From Pseudomonas sp. MPC6 (GTDB lineage Bacteria > Pseudomonadota > Gammaproteobacteria > Pseudomonadales > Pseudomonadaceae): DNA of 64,000 nucleotides. A model generated the notes under the pieces. The model was not told the DNA's origin and did no database searches. It saw nothing but the letters and a program-made list of their open reading frames with translations. Both the position numbers and the translations under genes were made by a program. This document shows positions 25,408 through 38,468 of this stretch, piece after piece (the stretch's first letter is position 1; the number at the start of each line of letters is the position of its first letter). Location of the stretch: NCBI RefSeq assembly GCF_006094435.1, contig NZ_CP034783.1:5297001-5361000 (forward strand), written 5' to 3'.

Positions 25408-25959
25408 TTATTCAGTCGTATCGACAATCGCCCGCAGGATCGGCTCGATGCTGACGAGCATGGGAACTCCTCCCCTGGTATCGGGCCCGCTCAGGGATTG
25501 AAAACCCAAAGACTCGTAATACGAAACTGCATTCGGCGCCGCATCCAGATACAAACCTCTGATAGGCACCTCGTTGTGAACCTTGGCCGCCTGGATAAAT
25601 GTATGTCTCAGGATTTCCTGTCCAATTCCAAGCCCCTGATATCGACGGTCCACACCGAACATCACCATCCGCACCACGGGCAACTGAGACGGCAGGTTCG
25701 ATTTTTTGATGGCCGATTTCGCTAGCGTTCTGTCAATGTGCCCCAGCGTGAGCGTACCAAAGCCAACGACTTCGCTCGCAGGGTTAATCGCACCAATACC
25801 CCGGATGTTTTCGCTCTTCAGGGCACGCTTCAAACCGCTTTTGTAGTACTCGTCCATCATGGCAAGCCCACAATCGAAATCTTTCAGATAAAGGTAAGTC
25901 TCAAGACGAACCTGCAAATGGTTGTCGATTTCATAAGCCGGAGCCGCTTTTGTCCCCAT
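25408..25959 (-). CDS. GNAT acetyltransferase toxin, TacT-like
   Basis: A 183-residue GNAT-fold protein. The acetyl-CoA pyrophosphate loop is RRYQGLGIGQEIL (105-117) and the C-terminal part has NAVSYYESLGF (143-153), with the tyrosine typical of TacT/AtaT toxins. These toxins acetylate the amino group of charged tRNA and stop translation. The gene overlaps the DUF1778 antitoxin gene by 29 bp, the standard module layout. The toxin appears intact. Confidence 0.85.
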   Translation of the reverse strand: MGTKAAPAYEIDNHLQVRLETYLYLKDFDCGLAMMDEYYKSGLKRALKSENIRGIGAINPASEVVGFGTLTLGHIDRTLAKSAIKKSNLPSQLPVVRMVMFGVDRRYQGLGIGQEILRHTFIQAAKVHNEVPIRGLYLDAAPNAVSYYESLGFQSLSGPDTRGGVPMLVSIEPILRAIVDTTE

Positions 25960-26236
25960 GCTTCCCTCTCATCAGGTTCAGTAACCCAGGCGTTGGAGCC
26001 GTATCCTCGTTAAGGATCTCCAGGGCTCGGGCATAGGCTTGTTCCGACACTTCGATACGCCGATGTTTTTCCATCACCTCCTCCGCCTTCTCAAAGGCAG
26101 ACGAAATAATGAAAGAAGTCATATCAAGCCCAGAGATTGAAGCGGCCTTGCGGATGAACTCCTTCGCGACGTCCGTGGTTTTGAGTTCAAGCCGCGCATT
26201 TTTTGGTGCTTTGAGAATTTCGTTAATTTCTATCAT
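25931..26236 (-). CDS. DUF1778 antitoxin, TacA-like
   Basis: A 101-residue protein with an N-terminal ribbon-helix-helix region (ARLELKTTDVAKEFIRKAAS, about 14-33, then GLDMTSFIISSAFEKAEEV) and a C-terminal tail that in this family binds the GNAT toxin. It precedes and overlaps tacT. Such antitoxins also repress their own promoter, so the 26237-26330 stretch should contain the operator. GGGGA lies 6 bp before the ATG. Confidence 0.85.
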   Translation of the reverse strand: MIEINEILKAPKNARLELKTTDVAKEFIRKAASISGLDMTSFIISSAFEKAEEVMEKHRRIEVSEQAYARALEILNEDTAPTPGLLNLMRGKHGDKSGSGL

Positions 26237-26555: not shown

Positions 26556-27488
26556 TCAAATTTGCAGCGTCCCCCTTACCAAGGCTTCCAGCCTGGGCAA
26601 AATACTCGCTTCGTCATTGCCCAAAATGGCAATCGAAGAACCCTGTAACCCTGCCGACGAAACGGCGGCTGCGTCGCCGGCCAACGCCACCGGGCACGTA
26701 ACGCCCATTTGAAGGGCACGCAGACGCTGGTGCGCATCGGCCTGCAGTGGCACCTGGACCCATAACACCAGCGCGGCGGGCTGAATGGCCTTACACAGCA
26801 ACGGCAGTTCTTCCAGGGGCTGGCCCGTGCCCAGCACCTCGATGCGCAGCTGGTCATTACTCATCAACAAACCGGCGCACAACAGCTCCAGTTCGTGCGC
26901 ATGGCCCGAGCCGTCCGCCAGCAGCACGCAAGCACCGTTGCTCGGGTTCATCTGCAGTCGCAACAACATCCGCGCACGCAAGAAGGCGTCCAGGAACAGC
27001 CACTGACTGCGTCGGCCGAATGCATTGCCGGATGCCAGGCTGCGCCAGACAGGCAGCAGAACAGCCTCCAGTACCGTAGCCTTCGGATAGATCGTGAATA
27101 GTTGCCCGTGGAGGCGCTCCAGCTCTGCGCCATCAAAAGCCTGCGTGGCACGATGAACTGCCTCTTGCCACTGGACCAGGGGGGATTCGGCCGAGCCTGA
27201 TACAGCGAGCCCGGGCGTGTCCTGCTGCCGGACGAGCAGAGCGCCTATCTTGCTGATGGGCAGACCCCGGCTGGTCCAGAGCATGATGCTACGTATATGT
27301 TCGATGTCCTGTTGCGAATACAGGCGATGCCCTCCCACAGTGCGTACTGGTCGGATCAGCCCGTGGCGGCGCTCCCATGCCCGCAGGGTGATCGGGTTGA
27401 CGCCGGTCAGGCTGGCGACTTCCCGCATGGGGAGCAAGACGTCGTCGGAGGCGGATTCGATGGGCTCGGTCATTAAAAGTCGTTGCAT
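26556..27488 (-). CDS. MerR-family regulator, class II LitR/PplR-like
   Basis: A 310-residue protein. The MerR helix-turn-helix (about 18-85) contains MREVASLTGVNPITLRAWER and RRHGLIRPVRTVGGHRLYSQ. The rest (about 105-305) has the size and helix/Rossmann layout of the cobalamin-binding domains of LitR/CarH, but the canonical DxHxxG motif is not seen. This fits class II LitR proteins, which I recall use a partner LOV protein rather than B12. It is divergent from a LOV gene. Start could be 27488 or 27473; neither has a good ribosome site. Confidence 0.82.
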   Translation of the reverse strand: MQRLLMTEPIESASDDVLLPMREVASLTGVNPITLRAWERRHGLIRPVRTVGGHRLYSQQDIEHIRSIMLWTSRGLPISKIGALLVRQQDTPGLAVSGSAESPLVQWQEAVHRATQAFDGAELERLHGQLFTIYPKATVLEAVLLPVWRSLASGNAFGRRSQWLFLDAFLRARMLLRLQMNPSNGACVLLADGSGHAHELELLCAGLLMSNDQLRIEVLGTGQPLEELPLLCKAIQPAALVLWVQVPLQADAHQRLRALQMGVTCPVALAGDAAAVSSAGLQGSSIAILGNDEASILPRLEALVRGTLQI

Positions 27489-27637
27489 CCTGAGTGTGTC
27501 GGCATTCTAAACCAGGCATGACACTTTTAAACCAGCACCAATCGTTGTCCGGCGTCCCTGCGCCCTGCCATCTAGGCATGGCTGTCGCTGACGACTACGC
27601 TGTTGGACAAACCCCCGAACCCCAGCGAGCCCGGACC

Positions 27638-28084
27638 ATGATTGACGCCAAACTCCTGCAACTTATGGTCGAAGCCTCCAATGACGGCATCGTCGTGGCC
27701 GAGCAGGAAGGCGATGACAGCATCCTCATCTATGCCAACCCTGCCTTCGAGCGCCTGACCGGCTACAGTGCCGACGAAATTCTCTACCAGGATTGCCGGT
27801 TCCTGCAGGCAGACGATCATGATCAGGTCGGCCTCGAGGCAATTCGCGATGCCATCCGCCGCGGCCAGCCCTGCCGTCAGGTGCTGCGCAACTATCGTAA
27901 GGATGGCAGCCCGTTCTGGAACGAGCTGTCTATCACTCCCGTGCACAATGATGCCGACCAGTTGACCTACTACATTGGCATTCAGCATGACGTCAGCGAC
28001 AAGATTGCCGCTCTGGAAAGGATTCAGTCACTCGAGACCGAAGTGGCCGAGCTTCGCCTTCAATTGGCAAGGCTTGGTGGCTAA
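27638..28084 (+). CDS. Short LOV-domain blue-light photoreceptor, PplA/SB1-LOV-like
   Basis: A 148-residue single LOV domain. The flavin-adduct cysteine is Cys53 in YQDCRFLQADD, and the FMN contacts NYRKDGSPFWNEL (about 88-100) and YYIGIQHDVS (about 111-120) are present. It ends in an amphipathic helix (SLETEVAELRLQLARL) suited to dimerisation or partner binding. No output domain is attached. Similar short LOV proteins of P. putida work with PplR1. ATG 27638 opens MIDAKLLQ; an upstream extension is not conserved. 150 bp separate it from the divergent merR gene. Confidence 0.9.
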   Translation: MIDAKLLQLMVEASNDGIVVAEQEGDDSILIYANPAFERLTGYSADEILYQDCRFLQADDHDQVGLEAIRDAIRRGQPCRQVLRNYRKDGSPFWNELSITPVHNDADQLTYYIGIQHDVSDKIAALERIQSLETEVAELRLQLARLGG

Positions 28085-28114
28085 AGACGGATAGCGCTAG
28101 ACCGACACGAAAAG

Positions 28115-28138
28115 TGTACAAGAATATTGACTTGTACA
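28115..28138. promoter_or_regulatory. LitR/PplR-type operator 1 (TGTACA-N12-TGTACA)
   Basis: TGTACA at 28115-28120 and TGTACA at 28133-28138 are separated by exactly 12 bp. It matches the class II LitR consensus T(G/A)TACA-N12-TGTA(C/T)A as I remember it. TTGACT (28127-28132) inside the spacer can serve as a -35, with TAGGCT as a possible -10, so a bound repressor would cover the promoter of the 28209-33164 operon. Confidence 0.8.
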
Positions 28139-28165
28139 ATTTTCGACGTAGGCTTCAGACAAACC

Positions 28166-28189
28166 TGTACAATTATTTCGAATTGTACA
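28166..28189. promoter_or_regulatory. LitR/PplR-type operator 2 (TGTACA-N12-TGTACA)
   Basis: TGTACA at 28166-28171 and 28184-28189, again with 12 bp between. It starts exactly 51 bp after operator 1 (about five helical turns), so two bound dimers would sit on the same face of the DNA. It ends 19 bp before the first ATG of the operon. Confidence 0.8.
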
Positions 28190-28208
28190 ATTTTGCCTGG
28201 AGCCTGCC

Positions 28209-28631
28209 ATGTCTGCATATCTCCGCCATTTTGCTGACACGTTCATAACGCTGAACGCTGATCGCCTGGGCCAACTGGGCGAGCTATACAGCAACGACGT
28301 TCAGTTTCGTGATCCGTTGCATCAGCTTGATGGCTTGACGGCACTGCACACTTACTTTGAAAAACTGTACACCAACGTCCAAGAAATCCGCTACGACATC
28401 CTCGACGTGGATGAAACCGCCCCCGGCCACGGTTATCTGCGCTGGAACCTGCATTTCCGTCATCCGCGCCTGTCCCGCGGCCAGCTGATCAGTCTGCAAG
28501 GCTGCAGCCACCTGCGCTGGGCGACACATGTCTACCTGCACCACGACTACTTCGATGCCGGCGCCCTGCTCTACGAGCACGTCCCGGTTCTTGGCGGGGT
28601 GATCGGCTGGATCAAGGGAAGGCTCGCATGA
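28209..28631 (+). CDS. NTF2/SnoaL-like fold protein
   Basis: A 140-residue protein with an NTF2-like/SnoaL cone fold: FADTFITLNADRLGQLGELY, then YSNDVQFRDPLHQLDG, a typical opening. It starts the light-box operon and overlaps the next gene by 4 bp (ATGA). TGGAGCC lies before the ATG. Such small proteins can be isomerases, hydrolases or binding proteins; here a role with the lipid-modifying enzymes is only inferred from the operon. Confidence 0.8.
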   Translation: MSAYLRHFADTFITLNADRLGQLGELYSNDVQFRDPLHQLDGLTALHTYFEKLYTNVQEIRYDILDVDETAPGHGYLRWNLHFRHPRLSRGQLISLQGCSHLRWATHVYLHHDYFDAGALLYEHVPVLGGVIGWIKGRLA

Positions 28632-29377
28632 GTCGCTGCTGGTTGACAGGGGCCAGTAGCGGCCTTGGTGCTGCCCTGGCTGAATTGCTGCTGGAGCAAG
28701 GCCATGCGGTGGCCTTGGGGGGCCGGCGGGCGGAGGCACTGATGCCGCTCGTGCTGCGCCACCCTCGGGCCCTGCTTGCTACCGGCGACGTGACTGACCC
28801 ACGACAGGTCGCGGCTATCTGCGAGGACATCGAGCATGCGTGGGGCGCACTCGACCTGGTGATCCTGAACGCCGGCACCTGCGAATACCTTGTGCCGGGC
28901 AGGTTCGACGCCGAGACAGTCGAGCGCGTGATGCGCACTAACCTGCTCGGGGTCAGTTACTGCCTGCAGGCGGCACTGCCACTGCTGCGCCGCGGGCACC
29001 GGCCACACCTGGTGGTGATCGGCAGCTCGGTGACCTGGCTGGCGCTGCCCCGGGCTGGCGCCTATGGCGCGTCCAAGGCGGCCCTGCGTTATCTGGTCGA
29101 GTCCCTGCGCCTGGATCTGCACGCCGAAGGCATCGATGTAACGCTGGTCAGCCCAGGCTTCATCGACACCCCCCTGACCCGGCGCAATGCCTTTGCCATG
29201 CCACAACTCTGGACGTCCGACCGCGCCGCGCGGCATGTCGTCGCGCGCCTGCCGCGCCGACCGTTGGAGATCAACTTTCCACGTCTTTTCACTCTCGTCC
29301 TGCGCCTGCTCGGCGCCCTGCCAGCGCGTTGGCGCCTGGCCCTGGGCCGTCGCCTGGCGCGAACCGAACAGGAATAG
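28628..29377 (+). CDS. Short-chain dehydrogenase/reductase
   Basis: A 249-residue SDR. The cofactor motif TGASSGLGAALAELL (about 7-21), the NAG motif LNAGTCEY (about 79-86) and the catalytic Ser plus YGASKAAL (Tyr-x3-Lys, about 142-149) are present, followed by VSPGFIDTPL. The basic tail after residue 215 (GALPARWRLALGRRLAR) may associate with the membrane. Second gene of the operon, 4-bp overlap upstream and 6-bp gap downstream. Substrate unknown. Confidence 0.88.
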   Translation: MSRCWLTGASSGLGAALAELLLEQGHAVALGGRRAEALMPLVLRHPRALLATGDVTDPRQVAAICEDIEHAWGALDLVILNAGTCEYLVPGRFDAETVERVMRTNLLGVSYCLQAALPLLRRGHRPHLVVIGSSVTWLALPRAGAYGASKAALRYLVESLRLDLHAEGIDVTLVSPGFIDTPLTRRNAFAMPQLWTSDRAARHVVARLPRRPLEINFPRLFTLVLRLLGALPARWRLALGRRLARTEQE

Positions 29378-29383
29378 CGACAC

Positions 29384-30631
29384 ATGCGCATCGCCATCAT
29401 CGGTAGCGGGATCTCTGGGCTGACCTGTGCCTATCTGCTGTCACGTCGCAACGAGGTGACCGTGTTTGAAGCAGCCGACTGGATCGGCGGCCATACCCAT
29501 ACTGTCGACGTCCAATGGCAGGGCCAGCGTTATGCCGTGGACACCGGTTTCATCGTCTTCAACGACTGGACCTACCCCAACTTCATCCGTTTGATGGATC
29601 GCCTGGGCGTCGTCTCGCGCCCTACCGAGATGAGCTTTTCCGTCAACGATCCGGACAGCGGCCTGGAATACAACGGCAATAACCTCGACACCCTCTTCGC
29701 CCAGCGCGGCAATCTGCTGTCGCCGGGCTTCTGGGGAATGTTGCGCGATATCGTGCGCTTCAATCGCCAGGCGGTGGCCGACCTGGATGGCCACCGCATC
29801 GAGCCAGGCATGAGTCTTGGCGATTACCTGCACACGCGAAGCTACGGGCAGCGTTTCATCCATCACTATATCGTCCCTATGGGCTCGGCCATCTGGTCGG
29901 TATCAAGGGCCGACATGCTGCGCTTCCCGCTGCACTTCTTCGTCCGATTCTTTCGTAACCATGGCCTGCTCTCGATCAGCCAACGCCCGCAGTGGCGAGT
30001 GATCGAGGGTGGCTCGAGCAGCTACGTGGAGCCGTTGTGCAAGACCTTCGGCGAGCGCATTCGGCTCAATTGCCCGGTGACGAGCGTCCACCGGGACGAC
30101 ACCGGCGTGGAGATCACCAGCGCCGCAGGCCAGGAGCGCTTCGACAAGGTCGTGTTCGCCTGCCACAGCGACCAGGCTTTGGCGCTGCTGGAGCAACCTT
30201 TGATCGCCGAGCGCGAGGTGCTTGGCGCCCTCACCTATGCCGCCAATGAAATAGTGCTGCACACCGACACCCGCCTGCTGCCCTGCCGGCGCAAGGCCTG
30301 GGCCAGCTGGAACTATCGCCTCGGCGGACCCGCCCACGCCCCGGCGGCCGTGACCTACAACATGAACATTCTGCAAGGCCTCGACGCCCCGGTGACCTTC
30401 TGCCTGAGCCTCAATCAGGGCGACTGCGTGGACCCGTCGCAAGTGCTGGCACGCTTCAATTACGCCCATCCCCAATACAGCCTGGCCGCCATGGCGGCCC
30501 AGGCGCGCCAGGGTGAGCTGCAGGGGAACCGGCACAGCTATTTCTGCGGCGCTTACTGGGCAAACGGCTTCCATGAGGATGGCGTGGTCAGCGCACTGGA
30601 CGTCGCACAAAGGTTCGGGGAGCGCCTGTGA
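29384..30631 (+). CDS. NAD(P)/FAD-dependent amine oxidase-like protein
   Basis: A 415-residue flavoprotein with the N-terminal dinucleotide fold IIGSGISGLTCAYLL (about 5-19) and FEAADWIGGHTHT (about 29-41) of the amine oxidase/phytoene desaturase type. In proteobacteria it is regularly found beside DUF1365 and CFA-like methyltransferase genes. I recall a related set in Rhodobacter under RpoE-ChrR control and linked to furan fatty acids. Its stop overlaps the GTG start of the DUF1365 gene by 4 bp. Confidence 0.88.
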   Translation: MRIAIIGSGISGLTCAYLLSRRNEVTVFEAADWIGGHTHTVDVQWQGQRYAVDTGFIVFNDWTYPNFIRLMDRLGVVSRPTEMSFSVNDPDSGLEYNGNNLDTLFAQRGNLLSPGFWGMLRDIVRFNRQAVADLDGHRIEPGMSLGDYLHTRSYGQRFIHHYIVPMGSAIWSVSRADMLRFPLHFFVRFFRNHGLLSISQRPQWRVIEGGSSSYVEPLCKTFGERIRLNCPVTSVHRDDTGVEITSAAGQERFDKVVFACHSDQALALLEQPLIAEREVLGALTYAANEIVLHTDTRLLPCRRKAWASWNYRLGGPAHAPAAVTYNMNILQGLDAPVTFCLSLNQGDCVDPSQVLARFNYAHPQYSLAAMAAQARQGELQGNRHSYFCGAYWANGFHEDGVVSALDVAQRFGERL

Positions 30632-31440
30632 ACAGCAGCCTTTGCTACGGTTGGGTCAGCCACCGGCGCCTGGCGCCGCGGTTCCATGGTTTCCGCTATC
30701 GCAGCGGCATGTTTTACCTGGACCTGGACGAACAGGAACAGCTGCTGGGCCTGTCCCCGCTGCTCGGTGCTTCTCGCCTGGCGCCGCTGTGCTGGCGAGA
30801 AACCGATTACCTGCCGGCCTGGACCCGTCGCGGCATACCCTTGAAGGACGCGGTGCGCGAAGTGGTGGCCAAGGCCCTGGGCCAGGCACCGGACGGCGCC
30901 ATTCATTTGCTGACCCAGCCGCGCAGCTGGGGAATCTCGTTCAATCCGGTCAGTTTCTACTTTTGCCACGACAGCGACGGGCACCTGGCGGCAATTGTGC
31001 TGGAAGTCCGCAACACCCCCTGGCGTGAGCGCTTTCACTACGTGTTGTCGGTGCTGCCCGGTCAGCCCCGGCAGTTCTCGGTCAGCAAGGCCTTCCATGT
31101 CTCGCCGTTCCTGCCGATGGACATGCAGTACCACATGCGCTTCCACATCGATGGCGAGCACCTGCGCATCCACATGGAAAACCGCCGCGAAGGGCAAACA
31201 GTCTTCGAGGCCGACCTGGCCCTGCGCCGCCAGCCGCTGGATGCCGGCGCCCTGCGACGCCACGTACTGGCCTTCCCCTGGATGAGCCTGCGCACCCTCA
31301 CCGCCATTTACTGGCAAGCCATGCGCCTGCTGCTCAAGCGCACCCCGCTCTACACCCACACGTCCAGTAAGAGCAGCCAAGACCTTGGCCATCACGTCCA
31401 CGAGGAGCCCGAGCATGTCCGATCCAACTCTGAGCGTTAG
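30628..31440 (+). CDS. DUF1365 family protein
   Basis: A 270-residue protein starting with GTG that overlaps the previous stop (GTGA). DUF1365 features include YGWVSHRRLAPRFHGFRYRS at the N-terminus, SWGISFNPVSFYFCHD (about 91-106), KAFHVSPFLPMDMQY (about 153-167), and a membrane-proximal C-terminal helix. It is a constant neighbour of the flavoprotein and CFA-like enzyme, so a role in lipid modification is likely but unproven. The 3' end overlaps the next gene by 26 bp. Confidence 0.88.
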   Translation: MNSSLCYGWVSHRRLAPRFHGFRYRSGMFYLDLDEQEQLLGLSPLLGASRLAPLCWRETDYLPAWTRRGIPLKDAVREVVAKALGQAPDGAIHLLTQPRSWGISFNPVSFYFCHDSDGHLAAIVLEVRNTPWRERFHYVLSVLPGQPRQFSVSKAFHVSPFLPMDMQYHMRFHIDGEHLRIHMENRREGQTVFEADLALRRQPLDAGALRRHVLAFPWMSLRTLTAIYWQAMRLLLKRTPLYTHTSSKSSQDLGHHVHEEPEHVRSNSER

Positions 31441-32674
31441 CAAATCCTTTAGCCTGGCGCCACTATTCGGCGGCCTGGCCAGAAGCGCCGTGCTCACTCA
31501 GCTGCGCAACCTGCGCCAAGGCCGTCTGCGCCTGATCTGCAAAGGCCGGCAGTGGCTGTTCGGCGATGCCGGCAGCGCACTGCATGCCGAGGTCGAGATC
31601 TTCGACGAGGCAGCCTGGGGCATGGTGGCGGCCAACGGCTCGATCGGTGCCGGCGAAGCTTACATCCACGGCTGCTGGCGCACTCCGGACCTGGCCGCGG
31701 TCACCCGCCTCTTCGTCGCCAACCTCGAGGTGCTCGACGCCCTTGAAGGCGGGCTGGCCCGCCTGGGCCGTCCGGTCCTGCGCCTGCTGCATTGGTTCAA
31801 TCGCAACAACAGGCGCGGCTCGCGGCGCAATATTCTCGCCCATTACGATCTGGGCAATGCCTTGTTCGAGCGGCTGCTGGACCCGACCATGATGTACTCG
31901 GCGGCCATGTTCGACAGCCTGGAGCAGAGCCTGGAGCAGGGCCAACTAAACAAGCTTGAGCGTATCTGCGACAAACTCGCGCTGCGCCCCGACGATCATC
32001 TGCTCGAGATCGGTACCGGATGGGGTAGCCTGGCGATCCATGCCGCCACCCGGCACGGCTGCCGAGTGACCACCACCACGTTGTCCGAGGCGCAGTACGC
32101 CCATACCCTGCAGCGCGTCCGCGATCTTGGCCTGCAAGAACGCATTACCGTCCTGCGCGAGGACTACCGCGACCTTGGCGGACGCTTCGACAAGCTGGTC
32201 TCGATCGAAATGATCGAGGCGGTCGGGCACCGCTATCTGCCGGTTTACTTCCGCCGCTGCGCGTCGCTGCTCAAGGATGACGGCTTGATGCTGCTGCAGG
32301 CCATCACCATCCGCGACCAGCGCTATGAACAGGCCCGGCGGTCGGTGGATTTCATTCAACGGCATATCTTTCCCGGCGGTTCCCTGCCCTCCCTGAGCGT
32401 CATGCTGCAGACCGCCAGTCGGCATACCTCTTTGAACCTGGTGCACATGGAGGACTTCGGCCTGGACTATGCGCGGACCCTGCAGCACTGGCGCGACAAC
32501 TTGCGTCAGTCGCGCACCGCGTTGGTCGAGCTGGGCTATGACGATACCTTTCAGCGCCTGTGGGAGTTCTACCTGTGTTACTGCCAAGGCGGTTTCGAGG
32601 AGCGCGCGATCGGCGTCGCGCAACTGCTCTGGGCAGCCCCGGCCGCACGTCGCGCATCGCTGCCGGGCGGCTGA
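31415..32674 (+). CDS. Cyclopropane/furan fatty acid synthase-like methyltransferase
   Basis: A 419-residue SAM-dependent methyltransferase of the CFA synthase family, acting on unsaturated acyl chains of membrane phospholipids. Visible are HYDLGNALFERLLDP (143-157), the SAM motif LLEIGTGWGSLA (196-207), SIEMIEAVGHRYLPVY and a C-terminal GFEERAIGVAQLL. The active-site stretch reads MMYSAAMF, so the Cys of E. coli CFA (SCAYW) is Ala163. This and the context favour a UfaM-like, furan fatty acid type enzyme. ATG 31415 has GAGGAG upstream. Confidence 0.88.
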   Translation: MSDPTLSVSKSFSLAPLFGGLARSAVLTQLRNLRQGRLRLICKGRQWLFGDAGSALHAEVEIFDEAAWGMVAANGSIGAGEAYIHGCWRTPDLAAVTRLFVANLEVLDALEGGLARLGRPVLRLLHWFNRNNRRGSRRNILAHYDLGNALFERLLDPTMMYSAAMFDSLEQSLEQGQLNKLERICDKLALRPDDHLLEIGTGWGSLAIHAATRHGCRVTTTTLSEAQYAHTLQRVRDLGLQERITVLREDYRDLGGRFDKLVSIEMIEAVGHRYLPVYFRRCASLLKDDGLMLLQAITIRDQRYEQARRSVDFIQRHIFPGGSLPSLSVMLQTASRHTSLNLVHMEDFGLDYARTLQHWRDNLRQSRTALVELGYDDTFQRLWEFYLCYCQGGFEERAIGVAQLLWAAPAARRASLPGG

Positions 32675-32675
32675 T

Positions 32676-33164
32676 ATGAGCCGGGCCTGGCTGATCGGTA
32701 ACGCGCTATGGATGCAGGCCGCCTGGTGGGCTTGCGTGCTGAGCGAGCGGCATCCTTGGCTGCTACTGCCGGTGGTGGCCGGCCTGTTGGTGCATGTGGC
32801 TGCTTGCCCTCGCCCGGGCGAAGAAGCAATCACTCTGGCCTGCGTGGGGATGGCAGGTTGTTTACTGGATGCCGGCCTGGGTGCGCTGGGCGTTTTCGAT
32901 TTTGCCCAGCGCCCCCTACCCTTGTGGCTGGCCATGCTGTGGCTGGTGTTGGCCAGTGGGCTTCGCCACAGCCTGGCCTGGGCTCGACGTCCCCTCTGGT
33001 ACGGGGCGCTACTGGGCCTGTGCGGCGCACCTCCGGCTTACATCGCCGGTGCTACGCTGGCCGGTGTTGGCCTGCCTTGGGGCACTCTCGGCACGGTCCT
33101 GCTGCTCGCGCCGTTGTGGGCTGTATGGATGCCGCTTGTCCTGCGCCTGGCTGCACCCCGCTGA
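32676..33164 (+). CDS. DUF2878 family membrane protein
   Basis: A 162-residue, strongly hydrophobic protein with about five membrane segments, starting 1 bp after the stop of the CFA-like gene. The length, the Trp-rich start (ALWMQAAWWACVLSE) and the position in the cluster match DUF2878. It is the last gene of the plus-strand operon and is convergent with the DUF3833 gene (56-bp gap). Function unknown. Confidence 0.82.
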   Translation: MSRAWLIGNALWMQAAWWACVLSERHPWLLLPVVAGLLVHVAACPRPGEEAITLACVGMAGCLLDAGLGALGVFDFAQRPLPLWLAMLWLVLASGLRHSLAWARRPLWYGALLGLCGAPPAYIAGATLAGVGLPWGTLGTVLLLAPLWAVWMPLVLRLAAPR

Positions 33165-33220
33165 CAAGCAACTGCCTTCGAATGCGTGAACATCCTCTGC
33201 TTTGGCCGGTTATCGAGGGT

Positions 33221-33757
33221 TCATGGAAGCGACTCCGGCTGGCGACGGAAGAACAGGATCACTTCTCCCACCTCGACGCCAAGCTTGCTCATGCTCGAGC
33301 GATTGATCATCGTGTCTTCGTCCATCAGGTACATCCAGTCGTCCAGATCAACTTCCCAATGCCTGCCGTCAACCGGCAGGTCAAGACGATAGCGCCAGCG
33401 CAGCGCGTTGCCAGCGACCTCGCCCCTGGCCTCTCCGATTACGTCGTCCGCACGACCACGCCAATGCCCGGCGCCGGTCTGTTCCAGCGTCCAGACGCGC
33501 CGCTGACGCGTGCCATCGCTGTAGAGAAAACGCTCGTCGAGGATCAGCTGCCGGCCCTCGACGCGGCTTTCGATCCGGACATGGAAACGCTTGACCACCT
33601 CGCCCGAGCGATTCTGGAACAGGCCCCAAGCCTGTACCGGCCGGGAGAAGAACGCCACCAGATCCAGGGCCGGTCGCTCCTTTGCATAGTGCTCCACGCC
33701 AATGTTGTTACAGCTGACCAGCAACAGGCTAACGAGCAGTACCAGTATTTGACGCAT
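33221..33757 (-). CDS. DUF3833 family lipoprotein
   Basis: A 178-residue protein with a lipoprotein signal (hydrophobic core, lipobox LVSC, Cys16). The mature part opens NNIGVEHYAKERPALDLVAF and looks like a beta-rich, lipocalin-like domain; later RWRYRLDLPVDGRHWEVDLD. DUF3833 members are usual partners of the DUF1365/CFA set. Strong ribosome site GAGGAGG 5 bp upstream. It is 10 bp downstream of the chalcone-isomerase-like gene and cotranscribed with it. Confidence 0.85.
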   Translation of the reverse strand: MRQILVLLVSLLLVSCNNIGVEHYAKERPALDLVAFFSRPVQAWGLFQNRSGEVVKRFHVRIESRVEGRQLILDERFLYSDGTRQRRVWTLEQTGAGHWRGRADDVIGEARGEVAGNALRWRYRLDLPVDGRHWEVDLDDWMYLMDEDTMINRSSMSKLGVEVGEVILFFRRQPESLP

Positions 33758-33767
33758 CTCAACCTCC

Positions 33768-34325
33768 TCACTCCGCCGATCCGGCCATCCCCAGCAGTTG
33801 TTGACGCAATTGCTTATCCCGGGTGCGCGGATCGAGCCAGATGCCGAAGAAGGCGCGGGCGAATGCAGGGTCCTCGACCCGCCGGCGCAGTTGGCCGTCG
33901 ACGAAGAACGTGCAGCCAAAGCCTGGATGGTAGACCCCGGTAATCCGCATTCCGGGCCGAACATCGACGAAGGCGCCACGCATTTCACGGGACCAGCGTT
34001 GGAGCGTTGAGTCCTCTGGACGAGCCCCTGCCATGCGACGCATTTCCTTGAGACTGGCCTCCACCAGCGTGTCCCTGGAAAAGACACGGTGATAAGTCAG
34101 TTCGAGTGCAAAGGGCTGATCCCAGGTCAACGGCAACCCAGCGCTCCACAACCGCGCGGTGTATAGATTTACGCCGAACCAGGTGAAGTCGCCGCTGCCC
34201 ACCAGACGCCCATCGGGCAGCGCGGGACGCCAATCCGCCCAGGCAGGTACAGCGAGTACCAGTGCGAAGAGCAAGCATCTCGACAGACGATGTGCGAGAA
34301 AGCGTCTGGAATCAGCCACGTTCAT
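33768..34325 (-). CDS. Chalcone isomerase-like secreted protein
   Basis: A 185-residue protein with a signal peptide (about 8-30, ending PAWA) and a mature chalcone isomerase-like fold: GSGDFTWFGVNLYTARLWSA (about 43-62) and a conserved LTYHRVFSRDTLVEASL. Bacterial members are periplasmic and probably bind or transport fatty acids or lipids. First gene of the minus-strand pair; a LitR/PplR-type box lies 28 bp upstream. ATG 34325 chosen over a TTG one codon earlier. Confidence 0.82.
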   Translation of the reverse strand: MNVADSRRFLAHRLSRCLLFALVLAVPAWADWRPALPDGRLVGSGDFTWFGVNLYTARLWSAGLPLTWDQPFALELTYHRVFSRDTLVEASLKEMRRMAGARPEDSTLQRWSREMRGAFVDVRPGMRITGVYHPGFGCTFFVDGQLRRRVEDPAFARAFFGIWLDPRTRDKQLRQQLLGMAGSAE

Positions 34326-34352
34326 CAAGGTATTGACCTTCTTATGAAATTC

Positions 34353-34376
34353 TATACAAGACTAGCTCAATGTATA
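34353..34376. promoter_or_regulatory. LitR/PplR-type operator 3 (TATACA-N12-TGTATA)
   Basis: TATACA at 34353-34358 and TGTATA at 34371-34376, again 12 bp apart and a perfect inverted repeat of half-sites. It fits both degenerate positions of the consensus T(G/A)TACA-N12-TGTA(C/T)A. It lies immediately upstream of the chalcone-isomerase-like gene on the minus strand and ties that pair to the same regulator. Confidence 0.75.
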
Positions 34377-34923
34377 GTTTTTACGCGACCAATAGATAGC
34401 GGCGTACAACTTTTTGGGTAGGCATTTGATGCCCCCCCCCCCCCGTGGCTCTGGGGCACCTCCGTTGGCGCCACCGCAGGTCAGCGCGGCCGCGTAGTAG
34501 GCGACCAAGGCGATTCAGTCTAATACCTCAAATTAAATGCGCGTACCTAATCGCGGGGACTGCGTTTTGTGTCCGTATTTATTACAACTTGCCGATAAGA
34601 ATCCAGAAGCCTTATTCAGGTCGATACACTACTTGAACTCTCAATTAGTTGCTTCAGACCCACAACTTTTAAAATAACAAATCCTATAGAGCGAAATATT
34701 CTACAAAAAAATGAATTTGCAGTCCGCAAGGCGCGCGAATGAAAACAACCGAACTACGCTATTACGGGCACCTTGAGTAGTGAGCGGGAGTTCTATTACT
34801 GGTTGACCTTATTGAACTGCCCAGGAGCAAGGTTTGGGGGATCACTCACCATGATTCTGGTTGTTGCGCACTTGATGTTTGAGTGGCAGCAACAAGATCA
34901 ATACTCGGCAGAGGAATCCAGTC
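34377..34923. other. 547-bp AT-rich region with a C13 tract
   Basis: A run of 13 cytosines (34432-34444) lies 55 bp from operator 3. The stretch after about 34500 is clearly AT-richer than its surroundings (for example AACTTTTAAAATAACAAATC near 34663), which suggests acquired DNA. It should hold the sulfatase promoter. No convincing coding frame is seen; a 63-codon plus-strand frame at 34445 has no family match. Confidence 0.6.
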
Positions 34924-36582
34924 ATGAAACAACCCCCGCATCGCGCCAGGTTCTACCTTGCCTGTTCATTGCTGTTAGCGCTCAACGGTCTTGTCCAGGC
35001 TGCGCAAACGGCAAAACCCAACATTCTGTTTATCGTCTCCGACGACACTGGCTATGGTGACTTGGGACCTTACGGTGGCGGTGTCGGTCGAGGCATGCCC
35101 ACACCCAGCATTGATGAACTGGCCGCACAAGGTACGACCTTTTATTCCTTCTACGCCCAACCCAGTTGCACGCCCGGTCGGGCAGCCATGCAAACCGGGC
35201 GCATTCCGAACCGCAGTGGCATGACCACGGTTGCGTTCCAAGGCCAGGGTGGCGGTTTGCCTGCGGCCGAGTGGACGCTGGCTTCGGTGCTCAAGACCGG
35301 CGGCTACGACACGTACTTCACCGGTAAATGGCATTTGGGCGAAGCCGACTATGCGCTGCCCAACGCCCAGGGCTATGACGTGATGAAATACGTCGGCCTG
35401 TATCATCTCAATGCCTACACCTACGCTGACCCGGAATGGTTCCCCGACATGGATCCTGAAACGCGGGCGATGTTCACCCAAGTGACCAAGGGTGCGCTAT
35501 CGGCCAAGGCCGGCGAAAAGCCGGTCGAAGAGTTCAAGATCAATGGCCAGTACGTTGATACACCTGTAGTGGACGGTAAGCCCGGCGTGGTCGGGATTCC
35601 GTTCTTTGACGGGTATGTCGAGAAAGCCGCGATGGAGTTCCTCGACACTGCGGCCAAATCGGACAAGCCGTTTTTTATCAACATCAACTTCATGAAAGTG
35701 CATCAACCGAACATGCCGGCACCCGAGTTCGTCCATAAATCGATCTCCAAATCCAAGTATGCCGACTCGGTGGTGGAACTCGACACCCGTATTGGCCGCA
35801 TCATGGCCAAGCTCAAGGCACTGGGCATGGATAAAAACACCTTGGTGGTCTACACCACCGACAACGGTGCCTGGCAGGACGTATACCCCGACGCCGGCTA
35901 CACACCCTTCCGGGGTACCAAAGGCACGGTGCGTGAAGGTGGCAACCGGGTGCCTGCGATAATGGTCTGGCCGGAAAAAATCAAACCCAGTATGAAAAAC
36001 CACGACATCATCGGTGGACTTGATCTGATGGCGACCTTTGCCGCGGTAGCCGGGATCAAACTGCCGGAGAAAGATCGCGAAGGCCAGCCCATCATGTTCG
36101 ACAGCTATGACATGACCCCGGTACTGCTCGGCACCGGCCCGTCCCCTCGCAAAGAGTGGTTCTACTTCACCGAGAACGAACTGTCGCCCGGTGCCGCCCG
36201 CGTCGGTAACTTCAAGGCCGTATTCAACCTGCGGGGCGATGACGGCGCCCCCACCGGTGGCCTGGCTGTCGATACCAACCAAGGCTGGAAAGGCGCGAGC
36301 AAGTATGTGGCGACCGTGCCGCAGGTCTTTGACTTGTTGCAAGATCCCCAGGAACGCTACGACATTTTCATGAACAACTTCACCGAGCGTACCTGGTCGA
36401 TGGTTCCCATCAGCGTGGCGATCAACAACCTGATGAAAACCTACGCTCAGTACCCGCCACGCAAGATGCAAAGCATGACTTATGACGGGCCGATCGAGTT
36501 GTCCAAATACCAGAAATTCCAGTGGGTTCGAGAAGAATTGCAGAAGGAAGGCATTCACCTGCCGATGCCAGCCGGCAACTAG
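34924..36582 (+). CDS. Secreted arylsulfatase (type I)
   Basis: A 552-residue formylglycine sulfatase with a signal peptide (about 1-26, ending LVQA). The metal pair Asp40-Asp41 is in IVSDDTGYGDLG, the catalytic motif Cys82-Thr-Pro-Gly-Arg is in SCTPGRAAMQTGR, and other active-site parts are FTGKWHLGE and VYTTDNGAWQD. The Cys must be converted to formylglycine; no FGE/SUMF gene is in the window. Substrate unknown. GAGGAA lies 8 bp before ATG 34924. Followed 130 bp later by a FadL-type porin gene. Confidence 0.88.
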   Translation: MKQPPHRARFYLACSLLLALNGLVQAAQTAKPNILFIVSDDTGYGDLGPYGGGVGRGMPTPSIDELAAQGTTFYSFYAQPSCTPGRAAMQTGRIPNRSGMTTVAFQGQGGGLPAAEWTLASVLKTGGYDTYFTGKWHLGEADYALPNAQGYDVMKYVGLYHLNAYTYADPEWFPDMDPETRAMFTQVTKGALSAKAGEKPVEEFKINGQYVDTPVVDGKPGVVGIPFFDGYVEKAAMEFLDTAAKSDKPFFININFMKVHQPNMPAPEFVHKSISKSKYADSVVELDTRIGRIMAKLKALGMDKNTLVVYTTDNGAWQDVYPDAGYTPFRGTKGTVREGGNRVPAIMVWPEKIKPSMKNHDIIGGLDLMATFAAVAGIKLPEKDREGQPIMFDSYDMTPVLLGTGPSPRKEWFYFTENELSPGAARVGNFKAVFNLRGDDGAPTGGLAVDTNQGWKGASKYVATVPQVFDLLQDPQERYDIFMNNFTERTWSMVPISVAINNLMKTYAQYPPRKMQSMTYDGPIELSKYQKFQWVREELQKEGIHLPMPAGN

Positions 36583-36712
36583 TCAACCTGGAAAAAAGTG
36601 GCGGGCTGTTCGCACGCCGTCACTTCTGACCTGACGTTTATGAGTATCCGCTAACGCGTCAATAACTCACTGCCGGGAGCATCAAAATGAAAACAGTTGG
36701 CAAGGTGAATGT

Positions 36713-37981
36713 ATGCCGACAAAAATGACTACCTTGCCCGCTTGTACATTACTCGTCCTGTGCTCTCAGCAAGCATGGGCTGGCGGGATCATGCTTTACG
36801 AAATCGGTACCGATAACGTCGGCCTAGCCAACGCCGGTTCCGCCGCCAGGGCTCAAGGCCCTTCGACGATTGCCAGCAATCCGGCAGGCATGAGCTACCT
36901 GCCGGGCACGCAGATCACAGGTGGCTTGCAGGTGCTCTACGGCAACCTCAAATTCAATCGCGACGACGACACCAACGTCGTGGGCAGTGGCAGTGGCGCT
37001 GCCCTTGACCCGATGCCGGGTGCCAGTTTTTTCATTAGCCATCAACTTGATGATCATTGGAGCGTGGGCTTCGGCAACTACGGTGACTTCGGTCTTGCCG
37101 TCAATTACGACAACGACTGGTCCGGGCGCTACTTCGCACAGAATTCCAGCCTCCTCGGAGTGTCTTTTGTGCCAAGCCTGGCCTACCGCTTCAATGACCA
37201 ATGGTCGGTGGGCATAGGCGTTAAAGCCATGTACGGCATGCTGCAAGCCCAGACGGCCATCGACCGCTCACCCTTCGCCCTTACCGACCGCGGCGATGGA
37301 CAATACAAGTACAAGGATAACGATTGGGGCTTTGGCGCGAACGTGGGGGTCATCTATGCCCCGCAACCCGGCACGCGCATCGGCCTGACCTATACCAGCA
37401 AGGTCGACCTGAAGTTCGAAGACGGCCTGGACGTAAAGGGTAACGGCCCGCTCCTGCAGCGCCTGGACGGCACCAACACCGAACTCGACATGACGGTGCC
37501 ACAAACCGTCACATTGAGCCTGTTCCAGCAACTCGACCCACGCTGGGCCCTGCTCGCCTCGGTCAACTGGCAGGATTGGTCGGAATTCGGCGAGATCGCG
37601 GCCCGGGTCGACACCACGGCGATCGATGCGGTATCTACCACGATCGATGCCCACTACAAAGACACTTGGCACGTGTCGCTTGGCGGGCAATTCCAGGCCA
37701 CCCCGCAGTTGCTGTGGAATTTCGGCGTAGCGTACGACAGCAGTGCGGTGTCCGATGGCGATCGCACCTTTACCGTGCCCATGGCCGAATCCTGGCGCCT
37801 GGGGACGGGCGCCACCTATGCGCTGAACGAGGACACGGACGTCAACGTCAGTTGGGCCTTGATCTGGCTCGGCGATATGCCGGTGGATCAGACTAAACCT
37901 CTATCGGGCAACCGCACTTCGGGCCAGTTCGACAACGCCTGGATACAAACCGTGACCGGAAACATGACTTGGCGTTTCTGA
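36713..37981 (+). CDS. FadL/OmpP1/TodX-type outer-membrane transport protein
   Basis: A 422-residue outer-membrane beta-barrel with a signal peptide (cleavage near AWA at residue 23). The mature N-terminus GGIMLYEIGTDNVGLANAG and the NPAGMSYLPG hatch motif are typical of FadL-family channels for hydrophobic substrates. It ends in MTWRF, the C-terminal Phe expected for BAM recognition. It follows the sulfatase gene; the pair may desulfate and take up a lipophilic or aromatic sulfate ester. AAGG lies 7 bp before ATG. Confidence 0.88.
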   Translation: MPTKMTTLPACTLLVLCSQQAWAGGIMLYEIGTDNVGLANAGSAARAQGPSTIASNPAGMSYLPGTQITGGLQVLYGNLKFNRDDDTNVVGSGSGAALDPMPGASFFISHQLDDHWSVGFGNYGDFGLAVNYDNDWSGRYFAQNSSLLGVSFVPSLAYRFNDQWSVGIGVKAMYGMLQAQTAIDRSPFALTDRGDGQYKYKDNDWGFGANVGVIYAPQPGTRIGLTYTSKVDLKFEDGLDVKGNGPLLQRLDGTNTELDMTVPQTVTLSLFQQLDPRWALLASVNWQDWSEFGEIAARVDTTAIDAVSTTIDAHYKDTWHVSLGGQFQATPQLLWNFGVAYDSSAVSDGDRTFTVPMAESWRLGTGATYALNEDTDVNVSWALIWLGDMPVDQTKPLSGNRTSGQFDNAWIQTVTGNMTWRF

Positions 37982-38135: not shown

Positions 38136-38468
38136 TCAGGCATGCGCCTCACGATCAAGAACGTCAGCCACCCACTGATTGATACCTTTGCGAGCCAGCT
38201 GAGCTTTTACGGCAACGGTAGCGTGGAGCGCTGGCGCCAAACGAAGACTGAGATTGCCCGAATAAGGTTTCTGCGGCGTCCGGCCGAGCTTGGCACACGT
38301 ATCCAGATAATCGGTGACGGCCTCTTCAAAGGCTTCTCGAAGCTCCCGTACTGACTCGCCATGAAAGCCAACGATATCCTTGATACCCGCGATGTGGCCG
38401 ACAAACAGACCGTCTTCGTCGCTGTATTCAATTCGGGCGGCATAGCCTTGATAGTTCATTACGTTCAT
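38136..38468 (-). CDS. hicB: HicB family antitoxin
   Basis: A 110-residue protein with the HicB partial RNase H-like domain (YAARIEYSDEDGLFVGHIAG, about 9-28, then VGFHGESVRELREAFEEAV) and a C-terminal ribbon/helix DNA-binding part (LHATVAVKAQLARKGINQWV). It normally binds HicA toxin and represses the hicAB promoter. The hicA upstream is truncated, so this antitoxin is orphaned. The ATG overlaps the hicA stop (ATGA), the normal operon layout. Confidence 0.9.
   Translation of the reverse strand: MNVMNYQGYAARIEYSDEDGLFVGHIAGIKDIVGFHGESVRELREAFEEAVTDYLDTCAKLGRTPQKPYSGNLSLRLAPALHATVAVKAQLARKGINQWVADVLDREAHA

Follow-up and report, generated by a model that had tools for sequence, protein, structure and literature searches.

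Within a 64,000-nucleotide stretch of the 7.2-Mb genome of Pseudomonas sp. MPC6 (hereafter the window), 7.8 kb of DNA brings together a short LOV protein, a class II LitR-type repressor of the MerR family and what is probably a complete furan-lipid pathway. From its sequence and from analogy with characterized relatives, we consider it likely that at this locus blue light switches on the synthesis of furan fatty acids. This reading is supported because the predicted LitR operators are exact and conserved, the promoter geometry is like that of the promoter P6650 of P. mendocina, and the LOV protein is nearest to PpSB2-LOV. It is also supported because the LitR protein is related to CarH with the CarH residues Trp131, His132 and Glu141 replaced, and because DUF1365 genes stand near most UfaM-type genes while the MerR-LOV-lipid arrangement recurs in every PpSB2-type genome found.

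The predicted sensor-repressor pair and its candidate operators

The regulator gene (minus strand) and the LOV gene (plus strand) are divergent. Six plus-strand genes follow, with overlaps at three places (28631/28628, 30631/30628 and 31440/31415), and two further genes are convergent on those six. An earlier note on this DNA had named most of these genes; all of them lie where it placed them, and Pfam agrees with every name. It overlooked the SnoaL-like first gene (28209-28631) and three exact LitR operators. The features are as follows.

26556..27488, minus strand: class II LitR-type MerR regulator, 310 aa, predicted dark repressor (MerR_1 E 2.4e-15; CarH profile E 1.8e-22; without DxHxxG)
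27638..28084, plus strand: short LOV protein (148 aa; Cys53), a predicted anti-repressor activated by light (PAS_9; nearest structure 7a6p)
28115..28138, no strand: predicted LitR operator 1, overlapping the predicted -35 (exact TRTACA-N12-TGTAYA; conserved)
28127..28154, plus strand: predicted sigma-70 promoter TTGACT-N16-TAGGCT (spacing as in TTGACT-N16-TATGAT of P6650; weak -10)
28166..28189, no strand: predicted LitR operator 2, lying between the ATG and the predicted start of transcription (exact; spaced 51 bp from operator 1)
28209..28631, plus strand: SnoaL-like protein, first gene of the lipid operon (Pfam SnoaL_2 E 1.6e-10)
28628..29377, plus strand: short-chain dehydrogenase (SDR), overlapping the SnoaL-like gene (Pfam adh_short E 3.3e-38)
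29384..30631, plus strand: UfaD-like flavoprotein, predicted fatty acyl desaturase (Pfam Amino_oxidase E 2.4e-27 and NAD_binding_8)
30628..31440, plus strand: DUF1365 protein, UfaO-like, predicted furan-forming oxygenase; GTG start overlapping the flavoprotein gene (PF07103 E 8.3e-77)
31415..32674, plus strand: S-adenosylmethionine methyltransferase resembling cyclopropane fatty acid (CFA) synthase, UfaM-type, 419 aa (CMAS E 2.2e-83; active-site positions A-E-A-Q-Y; tree)
32676..33164, plus strand: DUF2878 protein (Pfam E 2.2e-34)
33221..33757, minus strand: DUF3833, probable lipoprotein (Pfam E 9.3e-68; LVSC lipobox by eye)
33768..34325, minus strand: chalcone-isomerase-like protein, probable signal peptide by eye (Pfam Chalcone_3 E 1.6e-12)
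34353..34376, no strand: predicted LitR operator 3, lying upstream of the unit of chalcone-isomerase-like and DUF3833 genes (exact match; conserved)

The operator of class II LitR proteins has been given as T(G/A)TACA-N12-TGTA(C/T)A (PMC9758184), and this consensus stands at the candidate target promoters of the locus. The window holds three exact matches (28115, 28166 and 34353), of which the first two lie over the lipid promoter at a spacing of 51 bp. When up to two mismatches were allowed, six matches were observed in the window against 1.36 expected, and none of 100 shuffles reached six. In the whole genome there were eight exact sites, compared with none for a reversed control pattern; five are intergenic (the three in the window and two at a photolyase locus, L031) and three lie inside long open reading frames. 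With one mismatch allowed, the genome gave 21 sites and the control pattern 11. Many one-mismatch sites are therefore chance, and a wide LitR regulon was rejected on this count. The surroundings were inspected for two of the 13 one-mismatch sites: C4:1055416 stands directly before a flavoprotein gene of L031, an operator-like placement, and C4:5307216 (window 10216) falls within a reading frame. Between the MerR and LOV genes no operator was found, the best match having four mismatches, which fits the constitutive LOV-LitR pair of P. mendocina.

The conservation of the operators was followed in 13 named loci coding for relatives of the window MerR protein (L017-L029; 12 from Pseudomonas and one from Azotobacter). 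Nine of these (L017-L025) have three exact operators. L026 has two exact sites and one single-mismatch site at the same places, plus one single-mismatch site elsewhere. L027 has one site, L028 one site with a mismatch, and L029 an exact site together with a single-mismatch one. The start-to-start distance of the paired sites is 51 bp throughout L017-L026, ten loci in all.

The LOV protein has the 148 residues, the cysteine at residue 53 and the divergent orientation that the earlier note gave it. It consists of a lone LOV domain with the adduct cysteine and flanking helices, without an effector, and is predicted by analogy to form a flavin-cysteine adduct under blue light. Its nearest solved relative is 7a6p (E 3.3e-71, aligned over residues 1-143), identified as PpSB2-LOV (PMC13322254), one of the two P. 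putida proteins named PpSB1-LOV and PpSB2-LOV (PMC9758184, PMC13322254). The slow recovery of PpSB1-LOV (~2400 min, 20 C) has been tied to clustered arginines, Arg61 and Arg66 among them, and the fast PpSB2-LOV (~2 min) has His61 and Ile66 (PMC13322254); elsewhere 109 and 0.5 min are cited for the two proteins, in the same order (PMC9758184). The window protein has R54, H61, L66 and R70, and a fast photocycle is predicted for it because of His61 and Leu66. At these two positions the genome's other LOV protein carries Arg61 and Leu66. Two sensors of different speed in the same cell would parallel the situation in KT2440.

The profile of the regulator matches CarH beyond the DNA-binding part (E 1.8e-22), and matches a construct containing just the B12 domain of CarH with E 1.3e-3. 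In a structure model (mean predicted local distance difference test score, pLDDT, 88.1) the helix-turn-helix region is followed by four helices (103-180) and by an alpha/beta domain (186-305). The absence of a DxHxxG motif, which the earlier note had remarked on, extends to the whole 310-aa protein. CarH uses His177, His132, Trp131 and Glu141 (PMC10442372); by hand count these align with H198, A156, N155 and W163. Histidine occupies the H177 position (H198) in only 2 of 47 aligned sequences, and W163 is present in all 47. Because the model shows the four helices and the alpha/beta domain and the contact residues are replaced, the protein seems to retain the overall B12-domain architecture without the B12 site. 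It thus combines an N-terminal MerR helix-turn-helix with a CarH-like C-terminal half that has no B12-binding motif, as in class II LitR, and has neither an axial histidine in a DxHxxG-type motif nor the adenosyl-pocket Trp/Glu of CarH and class I LitR. We predict, by analogy, that it represses light-inducible genes independently of B12. The genome encodes two further LitR paralogues, 43% and 34% identical to it, and one weak match confined to the DNA-binding part.

The predicted furan-lipid enzymes and the active site of the methyltransferase

Three enzyme steps have been described in R. sphaeroides and R. palustris: UfaM methylates vaccenate; UfaD, predicted to bind NAD/FAD and resembling phytoene dehydrogenases, desaturates; and UfaO, which contains DUF1365, makes the furan with O2 (PMC7380195). 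According to the same source, exposure to singlet oxygen makes the furan lipid vanish, and cells that cannot produce the lipid are killed. The three genes are consecutive in a Halomonas, whereas in R. sphaeroides ufaM is far from ufaD and ufaO (PMC12089945). The window carries UfaD-, UfaO- and UfaM-type genes in a row, a likeness by family and neighbourhood. The flavoprotein had weak matches to carotenoid desaturases, all under the cut-off, and the DUF1365 profile had no match among solved structures at E<=1. The CFA-like protein is below all three curated NCBIfam CFA cut-offs (255/400, 250/600 and 222/650 bits), while the single other CFA homologue of the genome (E<=0.001) passes CfaB at 747/650. 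As far as the sequence can tell, the product of the locus is probably a furan fatty acid rather than a cyclopropane.

The active site of the methyltransferase is the freshest point of the finding. E. coli CFA synthase holds its catalytic bicarbonate through Glu239, His266 and Tyr317 (PMC11387697). In the window enzyme the glutamate and the tyrosine are kept (Glu268 and Tyr352), so that two of the three ligands remain, but Gln295 replaces the ligand histidine and Ala163 replaces the cysteine of Cfa. This active-site pattern was present in 120 of 120 close homologues (the best of 8000 matches, 80-99% identical) and in all 13 synteny loci. To these we added 69 CFA-family proteins (L051-L119) from a longer match list covering 200 sampled genomes across the phylum, picked before their neighbours were viewed: the 29 best matches besides the window's own, 20 mid-list matches taken by score, and another 20 in the CFA-like tail. 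In the middle group, rows with an internal stop were skipped, and one member (L099) turned out to be Cfa-type. Glutamine stood at the ligand position in 48 of the 69 and histidine in 21. A DUF1365 gene was nearby in 38 of the 48 glutamine proteins and in none of the 21 histidine (Cfa-type) proteins; these counts are lower bounds, as flanks were about 1.5 kb for L051-L079 and about 3 kb for the others. Among the 10 glutamine proteins with no DUF1365 gene nearby, a photolyase gene was close in six (L081, L092-L094, L096 and L098) and neither in four. A tree built from 73 proteins separated the 51 with Gln from the 22 with His by a single branch with 100/100 support.

Cyclopropane synthesis by the CFA-like enzyme appears unlikely because the ligand histidine is glutamine in 48 of 48 proteins on its side of the tree and histidine in 21 of 21 on the opposite side. 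The 10-methylene-forming genes studied in PMC7791843 are said there to conserve the Cfa bicarbonate site, and the loss may therefore be particular to UfaM. We infer that CFA synthase and BfaA take a proton from the new methyl carbon and UfaM takes one from the chain, which would need a different base. On an even balance of chances, UfaM-type enzymes would form a separate branch of the CFA family, marked by Cys to Ser/Ala/Gly, the residue after the Glu to Ala, and His to Gln, in which proton loss from the chain gives a methyl-branched alkene, the entry to furan fatty acids, and no ring. If this is true, many light-regulon proteins now annotated as "cyclopropane synthases" would be furan-lipid methylases, and the signature would offer a simple rule for separating two kinds of enzyme that share annotation names. 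V. cholerae VC1122, blue-light-induced and called a putative CFA synthase (PMC5241685), is an example worth checking for it. Our literature search, which mostly excluded subscription papers, found no publication on the change in the bicarbonate site of UfaM, and the word "bicarbonate" is absent from the main text of PMC7380195.

Distribution and other light-related loci

The earlier note had proposed a synteny search in Pseudomonas genomes, and in that search the sensor-repressor-lipid arrangement recurs. The exact start of the PpSB2-LOV gene was found in 6 of 398 genomes, and in all six the MerR gene, the LOV gene, the lipid operon and the operators occur together; SnoaL was undetected in L140 and DUF3833 in L138. 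None of the six encodes exactly the 7a6p protein, 118-131 of its 143 residues being shared, so that none was taken to be KT2440; a literature search on KT2440 locus tags gave a single paper, which concerned fungi. The PpSB2-LOV gene of KT2440 presumably borders the ufa operon of that strain as well, which is made likely because of these six loci. A LOV gene was divergent beside the regulator in all 13 loci fetched by the regulator alone, although the regulators of L028 and L029 are nearer to the paralogue at a further locus of the genome, L034. Twelve loci, hand-picked (and so non-random) to span UfaM identities, were compared. In five, paired operators precede an uninterrupted series of genes, RudS-LitR-PhrB-SnoaL-SDR-FAD-DUF1365-UfaM-DUF2878. 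The other seven have the window-type operon, with LOV-LitR alongside in two and absent from the fetched stretch in five.

Among 119 sampled genomes of the genus, 113 had a LOV match at E<=1e-25, 106 a close LOV match (E<=4.4e-53), 89 a UfaM-type gene (E<=1e-100), and 84 both a close LOV and a UfaM-type gene. The places of LOV genes were taken from 115 rows with E<=4.4e-53, some of which also stand in long open frames; 29 weaker rows, mostly long multidomain frames, were dropped.

In total the genome of MPC6 has three LitR-type proteins and two short LOV proteins. At the photolyase locus (L031:1751-8423) the order is flavoprotein, paired operators, RudS-type gene (2-thiouracil desulfurase plus DUF1722), LitR, photolyase, SDR and flavoprotein. 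Its exact operators form a pair 50 bp apart, and its promoter, TTGACT-N16-TATGAT, is identical in hexamers and spacing to P6650 (PMC9758184). The SDR and flavoprotein copies there are 51% and 65% identical to those of the window; neither a DUF1365 gene nor a second UfaM gene was seen at this locus. It looks as if the furan pathway had moved beside its sensor. L034 has the order LOV, 201-aa protein, LitR, FolM and FolE. The 201-aa protein (L034:7693-8298), which had no Pfam match at E<=0.001, is the positional counterpart of PME15565 in P. mendocina. No site with up to one mismatch corresponding to the folM operator of P. mendocina was found at L034, where a two-mismatch site stands at the start of LitR.

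Proposed mechanism, alternatives and related systems

In the mechanism we propose, LitR would sit in the dark on the paired operators over the lipid promoter and on the third operator before the chalcone-isomerase-like gene, and would block transcription. Blue light would drive the flavin-Cys53 adduct in the LOV protein, which would then bind LitR and remove it from the DNA. UfaM would methylate the cis-vaccenate of membrane phospholipid, giving a methyl-branched alkene that UfaD would desaturate to a diene, and UfaO would add oxygen derived from O2 and close the furan ring. The furan lipid would be consumed by singlet oxygen and so shield the membrane. The SDR, SnoaL, DUF2878, DUF3833 and chalcone-isomerase-like proteins may be light-co-induced accessories, perhaps for envelope lipid handling; in our literature search no paper was found that mentions DUF3833 alongside DUF2878, DUF1365, chalcone isomerase-like proteins or furan.

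Several observations weigh against the blue-light switch as proposed. The N16 spacing from TTGACT, which operator 1 covers, puts the -10 of the lipid promoter at TAGGCT, a weak hexamer. A B12-binding_2 domain is reported for PmlR1 and PmlR2 of P. mendocina (PMC9758184), and the LitR paralogue at L031 matches it, whereas the window LitR had no match to this Pfam family (PF02607) at E<=1, as against 3 of 47 aligned orthologues with one. LOV and UfaM-type genes were no more than 6 kb apart in 10 of the 119 genomes, so that linkage is not required, though split assemblies may hide some cases.

It is rather unlikely that the adjacent LOV protein leaves the window LitR alone and that a paralogous LitR (of L034 or L031) reads the operators, adjacency being incidental. 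The number of LitR-type and short LOV proteins in the genome would allow this, and the three PplR proteins of P. putida act together and have similar DNA-binding heads (PMC9758184); the pairing of LOV gene and regulator in the 13 regulator-fetched loci (with L028 and L029 as noted) and in the six PpSB2-type loci argues against it. Distinctly less probable is that the CFA-like gene makes cyclopropane fatty acids, so that light induces ring formation in the membrane. The enzyme has the CMAS fold, the solved structure nearest to it is that of E. coli CFA synthase (6bqc), several homologues are named cyclopropane synthases in databases, and cyclic fatty acids also appeared in E. coli overexpressing Halomonas ufaM (PMC12089945). 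Yet it scores below the curated cut-offs whereas the other homologue passes CfaB, it has lost the ligand His and the Cfa-conserved Cys, and it adjoins UfaD- and UfaO-like genes; an identity as cyclopropane synthase was rejected on the scores, the His to Gln change and the DUF1365 neighbourhood. That the MerR protein is itself a CarH-type B12 photoreceptor is exceedingly improbable: CarH homology over the C-terminal half and the predicted architecture speak for it, but the protein has no DxHxxG, Trp131, His132 and Glu141 are replaced, His at the H177 position is rare, and the light response of P. putida is independent of B12 (PMC9758184). B12 sensing was rejected on the same sequence features.

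The earlier note had inferred that sensor, repressor and lipid enzymes form one light-controlled unit. The core of this, a short LOV protein and a B12-independent LitR over linked lipid genes, is supported by the operators, the synteny and the biochemistry of P. mendocina, where the LOV-LitR interaction is described (PMC9758184). "One unit" did not hold: there are at least two transcription units and three operators, and the unit is not closed, because the genome has two other LitR paralogues, a second LOV protein and the same operator at L031. As for its choice between cyclopropane and furan lipids, furan is the probable answer. Relief of a class II LitR by a short LOV protein, which it gave for PplR1 and PplA of P. 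putida, is known for a light-activated LOV protein of P. mendocina (PMC9758184).

The mechanism is mostly known in kind, and the locus is a well-marked example of an arrangement known in the genus rather than a new system. The blue-light sensor BluF of E. coli is a BLUF rather than a LOV protein. In the BluF-BluR system, as predicted here, a blue-light flavin protein controls a MerR-type regulator (PMC9758184). Closer is PmlR2/PmSB-LOV of P. mendocina, in which a class II LitR has a 148-aa short LOV protein (Cys53) nearby, the operator is the same, and the sites are paired, one over the -35 and one between the start site and the ATG; an operon containing ufaM is light-induced there (PMC9758184). 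In P. mendocina, however, folM/folE/folX accompany the LOV-LitR pair, while a separate locus contains the ufa genes together with pmlR1 and phrB (PMC9758184), whereas in the window the pair borders the ufa operon and the counterpart of the P. mendocina pair is L034. The likeness to PpSB2-LOV/PplR of P. putida KT2440 lies in the closest solved LOV structure, in His61 and a hydrophobic residue 66, and in the two LOV and three LitR-type proteins. With R. sphaeroides and R. palustris the window shares the CFA-like methylase, the NAD/FAD flavoprotein with phytoene-desaturase resemblance and the DUF1365 protein; there the product is raised by loss of the anti-sigma factor ChrR (PMC7380195), while here LOV-LitR control is predicted and SnoaL, SDR, DUF2878, DUF3833 and Chalcone_3 genes are extra. 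The locus is a compact natural cassette for testing blue-light protection of membranes from singlet oxygen, with possible use in optogenetics.

Some neighbouring features of the window were also recorded. Near the MerR gene, a GNAT acetyltransferase and a TacA1-like antitoxin (25408-26236, minus strand) resemble a TacA-TacT-type toxin-antitoxin pair. A run of 13 C at 34432-34444, between the chalcone-isomerase-like unit and the next gene, is possibly phase-variable or prone to sequencing error. Beyond it lie a sulfatase gene and then a gene for a FadL/TodX-type outer membrane protein (34879-37981), as well as a HicB-family protein (38136-38468, minus strand).

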